43,792 bases of DNA from Bacilli bacterium (GTDB lineage: Bacteria > Bacillota_I > Bacilli_A > RF39 > UBA660), in the NCBI GenBank assembly GCA_017512495.1, contig JAFWGF010000006.1:1-43792 (forward strand). Reading direction: 5' to 3'. The notes beneath the pieces are model-generated. The model did not search any database, was not told the origin of the DNA, and saw only the letters and a program-made list of their open reading frames with translations. Below, piece after piece: positions 7,019 to 40,787 of the stretch. A program made the translations under genes and the position numbers. Positions within the stretch are counted from its first letter, which is position 1. Each line of letters starts with the position of its first letter.

Positions 7019-7495
7019 ATGAAGAAGTGGCAAAAGATTTTAATTATTGTAGTTGCAGTTATATTAGTTATTGCAATTTTGATTTTTGCAATGTCTAAAG
7101 TAAACAAAAACACTTTTGAAGAAAAAATGCTTAAAAATGATTTTAAAATTACTGATGTAACTTCATCTAAAAAATTTAATAAAGAAAAAACTATTATTAA
7201 AGCTATAGAAACTACTGAGAAAGATAAAAAATATAGTATATATCTATTAGAGTTTAGTTCAGAAAAAACAGCAACCGACTACTTTAATAAAGAAAGAAAG
7301 AATTACAATAGTAAGAAAGATGATGATTCTGCTATTAACTACACTGTTGTAAGTAATAAAGAAAGATATACTATTACGATGAATAATAATCGTTATATTA
7401 ATTTATATAGGGATAAAAATAAGATTGTATATTATGATATAGATATGCAATATAGTGAAGAAGTTATTGATTTATTAGAGAAATTAGGGTATTAA
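7019..7495 (+). CDS. N-terminally anchored extracytoplasmic protein, unknown function
   Basis: A 158-residue protein. MKKWQKIL plus about 18 hydrophobic residues (to about residue 24) form a signal anchor; there is no lipobox. The external part is small, lysine-rich and mixed alpha/beta (SIYLLEFSSEKTATDYFNKER, NNRYINLYRDKNKIVYYDI), recalling small DUF4358-like or sporulation-lipoprotein-like domains, though I cannot name the family. The ATG at 7019 is chosen because GAGGAGA lies about 9 nt upstream; an upstream in-frame ATG at 6977 falls inside the preceding terminator. It is flanked by terminators, with no separate promoter recognised. Confidence 0.7.
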   Translation: MKKWQKILIIVVAVILVIAILIFAMSKVNKNTFEEKMLKNDFKITDVTSSKKFNKEKTIIKAIETTEKDKKYSIYLLEFSSEKTATDYFNKERKNYNSKKDDDSAINYTVVSNKERYTITMNNNRYINLYRDKNKIVYYDIDMQYSEEVIDLLEKLGY

Positions 7496-7521
7496 AAAAG
7501 CCATATTACTGGCTTTTCTTT
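7495..7521 (+). terminator. Terminator of the anchored protein gene
   Basis: Stem AAAAGCCA/TGGCTTTT (7496-7503, 7510-7517), 6-nt loop, then CTTT. It begins within the stop codon. Confidence 0.85.
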
Positions 7522-7830
7522 AATAGTATCTACTTCCTATAATTGATATTATGTTAACTTCTATATATTTTTTTCTATTGTTTATATTACCCCACTATTA
7601 TCAATAAGATAAGTATATTATAGCATTTATCTCTATTTATAACAATATTATAGTAATTAAATCAATTTAAATAAATTTTAATAATTTTTAATTTTAAATT
7701 ATTTATATATTTTAATTATTACATTATATATTATTATATATATTATATTTCTATAGTATTAGTATTAACATAATATAGTAAAATGCTACTATTAACCACT
7801 CTTCCCCTCTTATAGTAGGTTATCTATAAT

Positions 7831-7859
7831 TTGACTAAAAATAGACGATGCATTCTAAG
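7831..7859 (+). promoter_or_regulatory. Candidate promoter of the AUA-start gene
   Basis: TTGACT, 17-nt spacer, TCTAAG (7854-7859). The -35 is good and the -10 is modest. It would give a leader of about 95 nt containing the two interleaved stems. A TATAAT directly upstream (7825-7830) lacks a good -35. Confidence 0.4.
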
Positions 7860-7865
7860 CAATTT

Positions 7866-7938
7866 ATTTATTCTTAAATGGATAATTATAAGGCTAAATT
7901 CATTAGAATAAATGTATATATTTTTGATAATTATCCAT
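7866..7938 (+). other. Interleaved inverted repeats (pseudoknot or alternative hairpins) in a 5' leader
   Basis: Arm A, ATTTATTCT (7866-7874), is complementary to AGAATAAAT (7905-7913). Arm B, ATGGATAATTAT (7878-7889), is perfectly complementary over 12 bp to ATAATTATCCAT (7927-7938). The order A-B-A'-B' means the stems either form a pseudoknot or exclude one another. B' ends 10 nt before the Shine-Dalgarno. AT-richness raises the chance of fortuitous pairing, but a perfect 12-bp stem this close is still notable. Confidence 0.45.
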
Positions 7939-7963
7939 ACTATTATATAAGGAGGTAATTACT

Positions 7964-8158
7964 ATAGAAATTGATAGGGATAATACAAAAGTAAAAATAT
8001 ATAATGAAGAGGGGGAGTATCATGATAATAAAACTGATGATGATGACGATACTCAGTTATCTTTTGAAGATGACTCAGGAGTCATAAGTGATGAAGTATA
8101 TGAAGTTACTTCCGAAACAGATTTAGAAATAATTCAAAAACAAAAAGAAGGGGAATAG
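7964..8158 (+). CDS. Small acidic protein with apparent AUA start codon
   Basis: A 64-codon frame with no ATG, GTG or TTG start. AAGGAGG (7949-7955) is followed after 8 nt by ATA GAA ATT GAT. The frame upstream contains only non-start codons back to a TAA at 7928, and no in-frame ATG, GTG or TTG lies downstream. The product (reading EIDRDNTKVKIYNEEGEYHD, later DDDDDTQLSFEDDSG) is very acidic, has no hydrophobic segment, and has a composition unlike random AT-rich frame. A terminator begins in its last codons. It could be a real gene using AUA, a gene disabled by a start-codon G-to-A change, or a base-calling error. I recognise no family. Confidence 0.55.
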   Translation: MEIDRDNTKVKIYNEEGEYHDNKTDDDDDTQLSFEDDSGVISDEVYEVTSETDLEIIQKQKEGE

Positions 8159-8172
8159 ACCTCTTCTTTTAA
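8143..8172 (+). terminator. Terminator of the AUA-start gene
   Basis: Stem AAAAGAAG/CTTCTTTT (8143-8150, 8163-8170) enclosing a 12-nt loop that includes the TAG stop; the T run forms the 3' arm. The A run on the left could also serve deoB arriving from the right. Confidence 0.7.
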
Positions 8173-8185
8173 TTACTCCCCTACT

Positions 8186-9352
8186 TTATTCTAATATTTC
8201 TAAAATACTTTCTCCTATTTCAGGTTTTGAAATATCAAAGTTATCTGCGATAGTTGCTCCTATATTAGCTATTGTTTCAAATGGAGCAAGCTTTTTTGGT
8301 TCTTTAAAATTTCTACTATATATTATTACAGGAACATTTTCTCTAGTATGGCCATTACCACTGAAAGTAGGGTCATTACCATGATCAGCAGTAATAATTA
8401 ATAAATCCTCTAATTCTAATTTATTAATTATAATAGAGATATCTACATCTAATTCTTCAATAGCTCTAGCATAACCTTCTACATCTCTAGTATGACCATA
8501 TAAAGAATCAAAATCACATAAATTAACCATACATAGTCCCATAAACTTTTTATCAATTATATCCATTAATTTATTAATTGCTTCTGAATTACTAGTAGCT
8601 TTTATATTCTTATTGATACCTTGTCCATCAAAAATATCATTTATCTTCCCTATTCCAATAACACTATAGTTATTTTCATCTAAACGATCTAATATAGTAC
8701 GTTTTGGAGGTTTCATAGAAAAGTCTTTACGACAGTTATTTATCAATTTATAATTTCCTGGAGTTCCTGTAAATGGTCTAGCTATAATACGAGCTATTCT
8801 CCAATTACGTCTAAGTGATTCACTTCTGATTTTTTCACAATATTCATGTAGTGTAGCTATAGGTATACAATCTTCATGAGCTGCTATTTGTAAGTCTGAA
8901 TCAGCTGAAGTATAAACTATTAAAGATCCATAATTATATTGTCTTTCTCCTAATTCTTGAATAACTGAATCATCGTTAGAACACACATTACCAATGACAG
9001 AACGGCCGGTAATATTTTCTATACTAGCTAGTATTTCATATGTAAAACCTTCATTATATGCTTTAAATGGTACTTCATTCTTTAGCCCTACTATTTCGTA
9101 ATGACCATTAACGGAGTCTTTTCCAGCATTAATTGGCTTAGCTATTGTGTAATAAGCATCTACATTATCGTTATCACTCATATTAAGTGTATCTAAGAAA
9201 CCAATTTTTTTTAAGTTAGGAACAAATAAATTTTCTGTCTCATTAATATGTCCTAAAGTATTAGCTCCAGTATCACCGTAATTAGCCGCATCAGCTGTCT
9301 CCCCTACTCCTAGAGAATCTAATACTAATAAAAATATTCTTTTAAATTTCAT
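8186..9352 (-). CDS. deoB: Phosphopentomutase
   Basis: Interconverts ribose (or deoxyribose) 1- and 5-phosphates in nucleoside salvage; an alkaline-phosphatase-superfamily enzyme with two Mn ions. Metal-site motifs are visible: LVLDSLGVGE at the N-terminus (Asp about residue 12), DFDSLYGHTRD and ITADHGNDPT near residues 285 and 325, then NGHTRENVPV. Length (388) is normal. The phospho-acceptor segment, usually GKDTxTGHWE, reads GKDSVNGHYE here, so the phosphorylated Thr is Ser and the following Thr is Asn. AAGGAGTG precedes the ATG. It is the last gene of the xerD run, the same xerD-deoB association as in Bacillus. Confidence 0.95.
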   Translation of the reverse strand: MKFKRIFLLVLDSLGVGETADAANYGDTGANTLGHINETENLFVPNLKKIGFLDTLNMSDNDNVDAYYTIAKPINAGKDSVNGHYEIVGLKNEVPFKAYNEGFTYEILASIENITGRSVIGNVCSNDDSVIQELGERQYNYGSLIVYTSADSDLQIAAHEDCIPIATLHEYCEKIRSESLRRNWRIARIIARPFTGTPGNYKLINNCRKDFSMKPPKRTILDRLDENNYSVIGIGKINDIFDGQGINKNIKATSNSEAINKLMDIIDKKFMGLCMVNLCDFDSLYGHTRDVEGYARAIEELDVDISIIINKLELEDLLIITADHGNDPTFSGNGHTRENVPVIIYSRNFKEPKKLAPFETIANIGATIADNFDISKPEIGESILEILE

Positions 9353-9621: not shown

Positions 9622-9852
9622 CTATTTATTCGATTTAATTATTATTATTTTTTTAATTGTTAAAAAAGTAAAAATTAATGACCAAATAATACAAATAATT
9701 ATTAATATATGTTTTGGTAAAGGAATAATATCTTCTGCACCCCATCCTCTACTCATTGGCTTAGTTAATGGCAAAAAAGTATAATAAAAAACTAAAGATA
9801 ATGGAACACATATTATATATATAACTAATTTAATAATTTCTTTTTTAGCCAT
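9622..9852 (-). CDS. Small two-helix membrane protein
   Basis: A 76-residue protein with hydrophobic segments at about 7-28 and 49-68, the loop reading TKPMSRGWGAEDIIPLPKH, and a basic C-terminal end. The start overlaps the last 8 nt of xerD, and AAGGAG lies within the xerD tail, so translation is coupled. No family recognised; it may act with the next gene product as a small membrane pair. Confidence 0.65.
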   Translation of the reverse strand: MAKKEIIKLVIYIICVPLSLVFYYTFLPLTKPMSRGWGAEDIIPLPKHILIIICIIWSLIFTFLTIKKIIIIKSNK

Positions 9853-10738
9853 TTTTATTACTCCTTAAGTGATATTCATTATAATCATCAATTACTTTTT
9901 CATCACTAACTTTAGTATATATCTTAGTAGTAGATATATCAGAATGTCCTAACATTTCTTGGACACTTCTAAGATCTGCTCCTTTATTTACTAAATGAGT
10001 TGCAAAACTATGTCTCAAAGTATGAGGAGAAATATTAGGATTTAATCCTTTTTCTTCTAAGATAGATTTTAAGTTTTTAAAAAATCCTTGTCTAGTCATA
10101 CCTTGTCCATGATTATTTAGAAATAGCTTATTACAAGTTCTTTTCTTTAATAAAGAATCTCTTCTATCTAAATACTCTTGAAGATAATAGATAGAATATT
10201 CACCTAATGGAATATCTCTTTCCTTACTTCCTTTTCCTGATACTCTAATAATACAATTAATCATATCAATATCATTAATTTCTAAATTAACTAGTTCACT
10301 TACTCGTAAACCACATCCATACATTAATTCTAACATAGCTTTATTTCTATAGTCAAATGCCGTATCTAGTTTAATATCAAGTAAATTATCAATATCATCA
10401 ATACTAAGAGCTTTAGGAAGAGCTTTCTTTAATTTAGGTCTATCTATAAATTCAGATACATCTTCTTTAACCAGTTTTTCTTTTAATAGATATTTATGAA
10501 AGTTTTTAATTACTGTTAAATTATGAGCTACTGTAGTTGTTTCTTCTTCAGATCTATCTTTTAAGAAGTTTTTAATATCATTACTACTTATATTATTTAT
10601 ATTAGTAATATGTTTATTCTTTAAATAATCTCTATATACTTCTAAATCATTCTTGTAAGATGATTTAGTACGATCAGATAATCCTTTTTCAAATATACAG
10701 TAATTTAAGAAATCTTCTATAGCAGTTTCTATATCCAT
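9845..10738 (-). CDS. xerD: Tyrosine recombinase XerD
   Basis: Site-specific recombinase that resolves chromosome dimers at dif with XerC, or acts alone. The N-terminal SAM-like core-binding domain spans about residues 1-85 (IEDFLNYCIFEKGLSDRTKSSY) and the catalytic domain about 105-297. Active-site residues are visible: Arg in YGCGLRVSEL, Lys in SGKGSKER, HTLRH, LGHSDISTTKIYT with the second His and the nucleophilic Tyr. Length is typical. The ATG at 10738 is preferred over a GTG three codons upstream because AGGTGA lies 5 nt before it and overlaps that GTG. Followed by two small membrane proteins and deoB. Confidence 0.93.
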   Translation of the reverse strand: MDIETAIEDFLNYCIFEKGLSDRTKSSYKNDLEVYRDYLKNKHITNINNISSNDIKNFLKDRSEEETTTVAHNLTVIKNFHKYLLKEKLVKEDVSEFIDRPKLKKALPKALSIDDIDNLLDIKLDTAFDYRNKAMLELMYGCGLRVSELVNLEINDIDMINCIIRVSGKGSKERDIPLGEYSIYYLQEYLDRRDSLLKKRTCNKLFLNNHGQGMTRQGFFKNLKSILEEKGLNPNISPHTLRHSFATHLVNKGADLRSVQEMLGHSDISTTKIYTKVSDEKVIDDYNEYHLRSNKNG

Positions 10739-10755
10739 ACTAATCACCTATTATA

Positions 10756-37630: not shown

Positions 37631-38182
37631 CTAATCCTTCTTTCTAAAATCACAAGTTAATTCGTGATCATTTATGATACCTATAGCTTGTAAGTAAGAA
37701 TATATTATTGTTGTACCTACAAAGCTCATTCCTCTACTCTTTAAATCTTTACTAATTTTATCAGATAATTCATTAGAAACAATTATTTTACCGGTCTTAT
37801 TAAATATTATTTTATTATTAGTAAATGACCAAATATAATTACTAAAAGATTTATATTCTTTTTGTATTTCCATAAATATTTTAGCATTATTAATAGTAGC
37901 TAGTATCTTTCTTTTATTTCTAACTATCTCTTTATTATTAATTAATTCATTAATCTTATTATCATTATATTTAGCTATTATTTCGTAATTAAAACTATCA
38001 AAAGCCTTATAAAAGGCTTTTCTCTTATTAAGTATACATTCCCATGATAAACCTGCTTGAAATGACTCTAAAACTAGCATTTCAAACAAGTATTTATCAT
38101 CATATGATGGAACTCCCCATTCTTCATCATGATATTTTATATATAAAGGATTATTTAAATTAACCCAATGACATCTATTCAC
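37631..38182 (-). CDS. tag: DNA-3-methyladenine glycosylase I
   Basis: Removes 3-methyladenine from alkylated DNA. The 183 residues carry all marks of Tag: zinc snap ligands MNRCHW (Cys4), YHDEEWGVPSYDDKYLFEML (His18), LESFQAGLSWECILNKR with the base-pocket residues, SRGMSFVGTTIIYSYLQAIG, and NDHELTCDF near the C-terminus (His and Cys of the zinc site). Overlaps the upstream ABC gene by 8 nt and is followed directly by the exporter pair, so a four-gene operon is likely. DNA repair beside exporters suggests a toxic-compound response, which is inference. Confidence 0.93.
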   Translation of the reverse strand: MNRCHWVNLNNPLYIKYHDEEWGVPSYDDKYLFEMLVLESFQAGLSWECILNKRKAFYKAFDSFNYEIIAKYNDNKINELINNKEIVRNKRKILATINNAKIFMEIQKEYKSFSNYIWSFTNNKIIFNKTGKIIVSNELSDKISKDLKSRGMSFVGTTIIYSYLQAIGIINDHELTCDFRKKD

Positions 38183-40720
38183 TTCTAAGTGCCTCTACTG
38201 GATCTTTCTTACTAGCTATCTTAGCTGGGATAAATCCAGCTATTACTGTAAGTAATACACTAATTATAATTAAAACAATTGCTCCATCAGTAGGTAATAC
38301 AGAAATATTACTAATATTAACAGCATGTTTAATGATAATATTAATTGGAATATTTAAAACTAATGTAACAATAATACCTAATACTCCTGCTCCTAATCCT
38401 TCTATTAAAGTTTCTGCATTAAATACTCTAGAAATATCTTTCTTACTAGCACCAATGGCACGTAAAATACCAATTTCTTTAGTTCTTTCAATTACAGAAA
38501 TATAAGTAATAATAGCAATCATAATACTTGAAACTACTAAACTAATTGCTACAAAGGCAATTAATACACTACTAATAACATTAACTATAGTAGAAACACT
38601 ACTCATCATTATTCCTACTACATCAGTATATTCAATCTGATCTTTTTTCTTTTTACCTTTGTTAAAATCATCTATTATTTTTACTATTTCTTCTTTTGAA
38701 TCAAAATCTTTAGGGAATATACTAATAGTATCGGGATTATCTAGTTCTGAAATACCTAATTTAGTTAAATTTTCTATATAAGAAGAAGTCATATTTTCAC
38801 TATAATTCTTCATATATAAAGCTAACTCATCTTGACTCATACTTTGTAATGCCATCATTTGTTCTGAAGTTAAATTATTAATATCAAAACTAGCTGTACT
38901 ACTAAATTTATTACCTGTAAAGACATTTATTTCTTCGTTAGCTTTTTGTTCTTTAACAATTTCTTGCTCATTAATTTTATTAACTAAGTGTTCCATTAAG
39001 TCTTTTTGATATCCTACCATACCATAACTATTAGAACCACCAACAGCTTCTTCATTTTGTTTGATAATACCAACTATTTTTAATTCTTCACTATTATTAA
39101 TTAGATTTTTCATGTATTCTTCATCATCTGATTTATTTATCCAAATACCTTTTTCTTTAACATAATAATCAGTGTTTAAGACTAATTTGAATTTTAAATT
39201 TAATAACTCATCATATGAATAACTCTTCTCTTCAAATTTAACTTTTTTCTTATTAGTCATATCAGTAAATTTTTCTTTTAACTCATCTTGATCAAGTACT
39301 CCAATACTATATAATGTATAATCACTTATAGTATTATCCTTACTAACCGTAAGAACTAATTCATTATAATTTTTAGGCCAACTACCAGCTACTAAATCAT
39401 ATTGTTGTTTATTTAATTTATCATTATCAATCATTTCAAAGAATACATCATTACTAGACATCATAGTACTATAAATACTTGAAACACTATCTGTACCCAT
39501 TCCTAGACTATCTAATACAGTCGTAGGATTTACTCTTACAATTTTTTCTGTATCAGCTTTATATAAGTTTAAAGTCGTATTATATCCATATGATATATCT
39601 GATACATAATTATTTATTTCTTTATGTTCATCTAAATATTTCTTTAGACTCTTCATATCATTATGTTTAGCTTCACTAGATATTGTTTCAAACATATCAC
39701 CTATAATATTAGATGAATGAATCTTATCATCATTGTATTCTTTATCTTTATTATTACCAGATATTGTTTGTAAGACAGTTGACATATCTACTGAATCTTT
39801 TTGAATCATCAACGGATAAGAACTTAAAGTTTCTTCTTCAGTCTTATCAATAAACTTATTTATACCGTGAGAAAGTGAAAGTATTAAAGCAATTCCAATA
39901 ATACCAATTGATCCAGCAAAAGCTGTTAAGAAAGTTCTACCTTTCTTAGTCATTAAATTATTTAATGACAAAGCTAAAGCTGTTTTAAAACTCATAGATG
40001 TTTTTTTAGAATATTTATCTATCTTTTCTTTACTTTCATCTCCATCAAATGGTTTAGAATCATTAGTAACTTTACCATCTTTTAATTTTATAATTCTAGT
40101 AGCATATTCATTAGCAATTTCAGAATTATGAGTAACCATAATAACTAATCTATCTTTAGCAATTTCTTTTAATAAATCCATTACTTGTTTAGAAGTAGCT
40201 GTATCTAATGCTCCTGTAGGTTCATCTGCAAGTACTATTTCAGGATCATTAACTAAAGCTCTTGCAATAGCAACTCTTTGCATTTGACCACCAGATAATT
40301 GGGCTGGTTTCTTATTTATATGATCTTTTAAACCTACTTTAACTAAAGCATTTTGGCTCTTTTTCTTCTTTCAGTCTTAGAAATTCCTGATAGAGTTAAA
40401 GCTAACTCCACGTTACTTAATACTGATTGATGAGGTATTAAATTATAACTTTGAAATACAAATCCAACGCTATGATTACGATAAGTATCCCAATCTCTAT
40501 CATTATACTTCTTAGTACTAATATTATTTATAATCAAATCACCTGAATCATAGTGATCTAATCCTCCTACAATATTTAATAAAGTGGTTTTTCCACTACC
40601 ACTAGGTCCTAGGATTGCTGCAAACTCATTTTTTCTGAAGTTAATACTTACTTTATTTAAAGCTTTTTGACTAAATCCTTCAGTTACATAAGTTTTAGTA
40701 ATATCTTTTAATCTTAACAT
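38175..40720 (-). pseudogene. MacB-like ABC transporter (ATPase-permease fusion), single frameshift
   Basis: Two adjacent frames form one gene of 848 codons if one base is added. The first (40720-40343) has Walker A GPSGSGKTT and the Q-loop FQSYNLIPH, and stops at TAG after AKML. Adding one A to the run at 40354-40351 (AAAA on the minus strand) restores GCC AAA AAT GCT TTA and continues through VKVGLKDHINKKPAQLSGGQ into the second frame, with Walker B IVLADEPTGALD and VTHN. The rest is a MacB/FtsX permease: TM1 around FAGSIGIIGIALILSL, a large extracytoplasmic domain and three C-terminal helices ending KKDPVEALRSE. A homopolymer error in the assembly is as likely as a real mutation. GGGAGG precedes the ATG. 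Confidence 0.85.
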
Positions 40721-40787
40721 AAAGACCTCCCTTATAATCTCATATTATATTTTACTATTATATTCTATAAAAAACAAATACTTTCTA

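Follow-up and report, generated by a model that had tools for sequence, protein, structure and literature searches.

The 64-codon open reading frame that begins with ATA in the window, as we call the whole 43,792-nucleotide stretch of DNA analysed here, is, judged by homology and gene order, a real gene. It belongs to a family of small proteins derived from DUF1540, as the orthologue on the deoB side. We put at roughly 0.57 the probability that its ancestral ATG was converted to ATA on the branch of this species and that AUA, most likely still the start codon, gives a low protein output. We envision a scenario whereby the strong Shine-Dalgarno (SD) sequence 8 nt upstream would let AUA still serve as a start, decoded by the initiator tRNA with a third-position mismatch, and whereby the small protein would be made at a small fraction of its former rate. 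Two circumstances might have made such a change tolerable: initiation at AUA, AUU or AUC (collectively AUH) is already in use in the clade, in infC and comEA, and most species of the genus appear able to do without the protein. The open frame, its homology, the ATG of its relatives and the AUH starts elsewhere in the genus are direct observations.

The window is contig C4 of a draft genome that totals 1.37 Mb in 51 contigs and is 86% complete; the G+C content is 26.6%. A first-pass annotation, made from the letters alone, had described AAGGAGG followed at 8 nt by ATA, a frame of 64 codons and its stop, with no ATG, GTG or TTG back to an upstream in-frame stop at 7928. All of this holds (Table 1). 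The frame is bounded by TAA at 7928-7930 and by TAG at 8156-8158, the spacer between AAGGAGG and ATA occupies 7956-7963, and CTG, too, is absent from all 75 codons between the two stops. Thus, the frame combines the lack of any in-frame ATG, GTG or TTG with a strong SD (TAAGGAGGT) at 8 nt, and its 64 codons are open, with no internal stop or frameshift. Two other near-cognate codons lie nearby in the same frame, ATT 7958 (2 nt past AAGGAGG) and ATT 7970 (14 nt); both were rejected as starts on spacing, although a scan with loose spacing chose ATT 7958 instead of ATA 7964. The terminator claimed for the end of the gene fared less clearly: an 11-bp stem was seen there by eye, but a consensus scan of 7400-8300 returned no terminator-like sites. 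No Rfam family matched in the window, and an AlphaFold2 model of the small protein on alignment A1 was of low confidence (mean pLDDT 61.6, pTM 0.16).

Table 1. Features around the ATA-initiated frame, in positions of the window.
Feature	Position	Strand	Basis or remark
dif-like site ACTTCCTATAATTGATATTATGTTAACTT, at the GC-skew switch	7532..7560	+	pattern search
Conserved dif-linked element of ~67 bp, upstream of the small gene	7847..7913	+	sequence model; ~290 bp after dif
Shine-Dalgarno AAGGAGG	7949..7955	+	9-nt match TAAGGAGGT to anti-SD complement; 8 nt before ATA
ATA codon, where homologues have ATG	7964..7966	+	comparison with homologues
64-codon ORF, deoB-adjacent DUF1540-plus-tail orthologue, cysteine-free, N-terminal domain lost	7964..8158	+	homology
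Conserved tail SFEDDSGVISDEVYEVTSE, family form SFxxxxGIITDNEYEVTSE	8060..8116	+	alignment columns
11-bp hairpin spanning the stop codon, stem AAAAGAAGGGG/CCTCTTCTTTT (8143-8153/8160-8170), possible terminator shared with convergent deoB	8143..8170	+	by eye
deoB, phosphopentomutase, convergent neighbour	8186..9352	-	14/14 genus copies on same contig; 23/30 best family loci
xerD, tyrosine recombinase	9845..10747	-	TIGR02225, 330.1 bits vs cut-off 329.6

A first search of 59 genomes with the 64 residues returned weak matches to short ORFs of this genus, the best at E=1.9e-4. By profile search, the small gene is found in 14 of the 39 genus genomes (that of the window included), always on the contig that carries deoB; deoB itself is present in 32 of the 39, and the small gene is convergent with it at the corresponding place, the end of deoB lying 27 bp past the small gene's stop in the window. 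When the window row is left out and the profile rests on the 12 rows that remain, it recovers the window ORF at E=1.8e-9, the next best of 5672 peptides from 390 kb scoring 0.81. Together with the shared tail and the position beside convergent deoB, this bears out the earlier suggestion of a complete small gene. In two genus genomes (G007 and G022) and in relatives from other genera the tail is preceded by a DUF1540 four-cysteine domain (Pfam E 7.7e-10 to 7.4e-7), four conserved cysteines being given as the DUF1540 signature (PMC7677010). A DUF1540-plus-tail profile matches 127 of 386 family genomes, and among the best 30 of these 127 loci deoB lies within the fetched locus in 23. In nine of the 14 copies from the genus there is one cysteine or none (G004 being counted up to its frameshift), so that the genus seems largely to have shed the DUF1540 domain and retained the tail. 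A viral relative was rejected as well; of 23 pattern matches none was confirmed.

Could the frame nevertheless be open by chance? We sampled 389,743 bases, namely the window and 20 other stretches from this genome. Of the 798 stop-to-stop frames in the sample that reach 64 codons, 123 lack ATG, GTG and TTG, but 114 of these share all or part of their length with a larger ORF. A start-less frame by itself is therefore not rare in this A+T-rich genome; it is the combination of an SD with a near-cognate codon that is rare. Among 418 non-overlapping frames of at least 55 codons, a near-cognate codon stands behind an SD of at least 6 nt and ahead of every canonical start in only two, the window ORF and comEA, while a looser scan over the same frames added four further candidates. 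Of the 127 AGGAGG sites in the sample, 77 precede a canonical start and 36 fall within ORFs; among the 14 others, only those of the window ORF and comEA open a near-cognate frame of at least 50 codons. The idea that AAGGAGG and ATA coincide by accident and that no gene exists thus draws on the abundance of start-less frames, but it is contradicted by the match to a profile built without the window row, by the synteny beside deoB and by the conserved placement of the SD; we rejected it on homology and regard its probability as negligible.

Three signs place the small gene at the replication terminus: the dif-like site, a GC-skew switch near 8 kb of the window, and genes that face each other there with xerD nearby, only 2.3 kb from the dif-like site. 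The dif pattern, for which the B. subtilis dif sequence served as background, has a single match in each of 55 genomes out of 145 from the family, and the reversed control gave 0 matches. The ~67-bp element is present in one to several tandem copies of the form ATGCATTTTAAGCGATTTA...TAGATGGATAATT...CATCTAAATTT. Its model matches 31 of the 39 genus genomes, with strong matches at this locus, and in the 17 genus genomes in which both were located dif and the element are 242-370 bp apart, start to start. In the family sample it occurs in 12 of 145 genomes (that of the window included), in 10 of the 12 within about 350 bp of a dif match. The element matches nothing in Rfam and yields no consensus RNA structure; folded as DNA, 5 of 8 copies reach z below -1.9, and a hairpin is not established because the other 3 do not. 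In genomes without the small gene, its place on the left flank of deoB is often taken by a protein that looks secreted and contains repeats, for example CETVDGAYYGKDGKEVDKVQYEKEC (G002, G003, G008, G012, G013, G014, G019, G020 and G024). Elsewhere in the window, a MacB-like ABC transporter gene (38175-40744, minus strand) is broken into two reading frames around 40343-40370, either as a pseudogene or through an assembly error.

The start codon differs sharply between the window and its relatives. In the genus, each of the 13 other copies carries ATG here, behind SD-like sequence, and in 29 further family loci, read from the best 30 of the 127 DUF1540 matches after omission of one that is G022 again (L126), ATG occurs 28 times, TTG once (L148) and ATA never. 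Pooled, ATG is found in 41/42 homologues, TTG in 1/42 and ATA, or any other near-cognate codon, in 0/42, which implies that ATA arose on the species' own branch. The first-pass annotation had counted ATG in homologues, combined with reads supporting G, as evidence against its claim of AUA initiation, and the homologue half of that is what we find; its further remark was that AUA usually marks tightly limited translation, as AUU does in infC, and a reading of AUA as a conserved, selected limiter of this gene is not supported by these counts. We also considered whether AUA is reassigned to methionine, and rejected this, given that the ATA codons of deoB align with isoleucine: opposite its 24 ATA codons, relatives that use another codon carry isoleucine in 184 of 275 residues. 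Among the genus copies, that of G004 (L030:1-470) opens with ATG and then meets a stop within a run of A, the tail continuing in another frame; the G028 copy is intact where that of G004 is frameshifted.

Is the gene, then, an early pseudogene that lost its start codon by mutation, now yields too little protein to matter and is still open because the loss is recent? The small gene is absent from 25 of the 39 genus genomes, among them the two nearest by deoB, G034 (90%) and G001 (87%), which are 71% and 96% complete, respectively; by this distribution most species of the genus can do without the protein, and in the species of the window the gene may be decaying and on its way out of the lineage. 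The near-uniform ATG of the homologues, the frameshifted copy of G004 and the split ABC transporter gene on the same contig point in the same direction, as does the divergence of the 19-codon tail: mean identity is 0.547 for the window against 0.663 among other pairs, and pN is raised (0.32 vs 0.21) at a similar pS (0.55 vs 0.54), values that rest on 19 codons only. Raised divergence does not settle relaxed selection, because G018, with an ATG start, is lower still in tail identity (0.526), and the N to E exchange in DNxYE, seemingly specific to the window within the genus, recurs in two relatives with ATG (L136 and L137). Moreover, the 64 codons carry no other lesion, the SD is perfect, and the clade lives with AUA, AUU and AUC starts in an intact and conserved comEA. 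We therefore regard loss of function as somewhat unlikely, and favour a gene that is still translated weakly from AUA.

How might AUA be used at all? In Staphylococcus aureus, another member of the Bacilli, infC, ccpN and citZ are reported to initiate at AUA, reporters with non-canonical starts reach about 10% of AUG, with up to 30% for ccpN, and extended SD motifs are thought to aid such starts (PMC13009471). By analogy, initiation at the AUA of the window ORF is probably weak, about 10-30% of AUG if the S. aureus values apply (PMC13009471), and these AUA starts, together with the 9-nt SD at 8 nt, make weak initiation the most likely state. Use of AUA as the start, the extent of its weakness and a protein that still works are what we infer here.

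AUH starts in comEA and infC of the same genus make AUA initiation plausible at the window ORF. The comEA gene of this genome (L087:3021-3689, minus strand, contig C15 of G000) is a 222-codon ORF opened by ATT behind AGGAGGTG; it matches TIGR01259 at E=6.5e-31 with 106.8 bits, below the cut-off of 152, and TIGR00426 with 81.2 bits, above the cut-off of 53. comEA was matched in 37 of the 39 genus genomes, and the 30 of these that were read have the following codons at the conserved N-terminus: ATG in 11, ATT in 9, ATA in 7, TTG in 2 and ATC in 1. From 128 matching family genomes, 28 further loci were taken, of which the 20 with an alignable N-terminus, from other genera, start with ATG (12), ATA (3), ATT (3), TTG (1) and GTG (1). 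AUH thus opens 17/30 copies in the genus, 6/20 in other genera and 23/50 overall (loci L154-L203), alternating with ATG at one codon position behind long SDs. In 15 of the 23 AUH copies no ATG, GTG or TTG lies in frame between codons -8 and +10, and for the remaining 8 a case can be made for a GTG within the SD, or for some other codon close by, as the start. An open frame of about 220 codons that encodes a conserved protein makes loss of function a poor explanation of the 23 AUH copies. A literature search for comEA with an AUU start returned no title on bacterial comEA.

In infC, the codon that follows GGAGGTG is ATC in 28 and ATA in 2 of 30 genus copies (L094-L123, from 33 genus genomes with infC), the codon having been chosen by its distance from GGAGGTG. 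Because most copies also have an ATG or TTG in frame that overlaps this SD, the count also rests on the AUA of S. aureus infC and on the AUU start of other Bacilli, such as that of B. subtilis infC. Counting against the preferred reading, the SDs of infC and comEA are mostly GGAGGTG(AT), whereas that of the window ORF is TAAGGAGGT. The earlier view of AUA as a start of limited translation is upheld in part: weak near-cognate initiation has precedent in the genus, in infC and, unexpectedly, in comEA, while a conserved and selected limiter finds no support.

A base error in the metagenome assembly, the true codon being ATG, would account for the ATG of the homologues, and both the draft state of the assembly (51 contigs, 86% complete) and the split ABC gene of the same contig, if that too is an assembly error, are in keeping with it. 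A random error exactly at a start codon is improbable, however; by reasoning, a substitution is not a homopolymer error, and ATA recurs as the comEA start in other assemblies (7/30 in the genus). We consider such an error quite improbable.

Might AUA instead have been selected? A narrower form of the preferred reading, which takes up a share of its probability and which we regard as unlikely, holds that in this species AUA has been selected to limit translation, keeping protein levels low or tied to growth, as has been suggested for ccpN. The strong SD would suit this, as would the output of the S. aureus ccpN AUA, which varies with the medium (PMC13009471). In comEA, moreover, AUH goes with a longer SD match than other starts (8.65 vs 7.85 nt, permutation p 0.022, relatedness ignored). 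Against it stands the small gene itself, for which AUA is found in no other species. As the gene is absent from 25 of the 39 genus genomes, a start-codon mutation in a weakly constrained gene may fit about as well as regulation. More broadly, we tentatively raise the possibility, which we would not yet favour, that this clade, made up of uncultured Bacilli of the gut, uses AUA, AUU and AUC starts in several genes as an evolvable low-expression device, with comEA flipping between AUG and AUH among species under compensating long SDs, infC fixed on AUC or AUA, and the small gene having reached AUA only recently and in the same way.

AUA, AUU and AUC starts are usually seen as isolated curiosities of bacteria. 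The 50 copies of the competence gene comEA examined, nearly half of them with AUH, offer a natural AUG-to-AUH series for gauging the effects of weak starts. A corollary concerns annotation, because gene finders limited to ATG, GTG and TTG truncate or miss genes in this clade: they would place the start of this genome's comEA at codon 109, its first in-frame canonical start, and leave the window ORF uncalled altogether.

How does the window ORF compare with known systems? Its relation to the small cysteine-rich proteins of DUF1540 (PF07561) is one of descent by position and tail: family orthologues beside deoB score as DUF1540, whereas the window protein matches no Pfam family, has no cysteine and appears to keep only the C-terminal tail. 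Like infC, which encodes IF3, it is a Firmicute gene in which a strong SD precedes a near-cognate AUH codon; AUA itself is found in S. aureus infC (PMC13009471) and in two of the 30 genus copies. It differs in that AUH is kept in all 30 genus infC copies read and AUA at the window ORF is unique to one species, and the autoregulation of infC by IF3 has no known counterpart at the window ORF. S. aureus cvfC1 (61 aa, AUU) likewise combines a small protein, a strong SD and a near-cognate start, and it is a possible zinc finger, while the ancestors of the window protein were cysteine-rich; its AUU is conserved among staphylococci, whereas the start codon of the window copy is not conserved and its cysteines are lost. 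Finally, citZ of S. aureus encodes a central enzyme in a cultured strain and its translation has been measured, whereas the window gene is small, apparently dispensable and known from the sequence of an uncultured species; yet citZ, too, has a lineage-specific AUA, confined to NCTC 8325, from which it is expressed at ~10% of the AUG level (PMC13009471).
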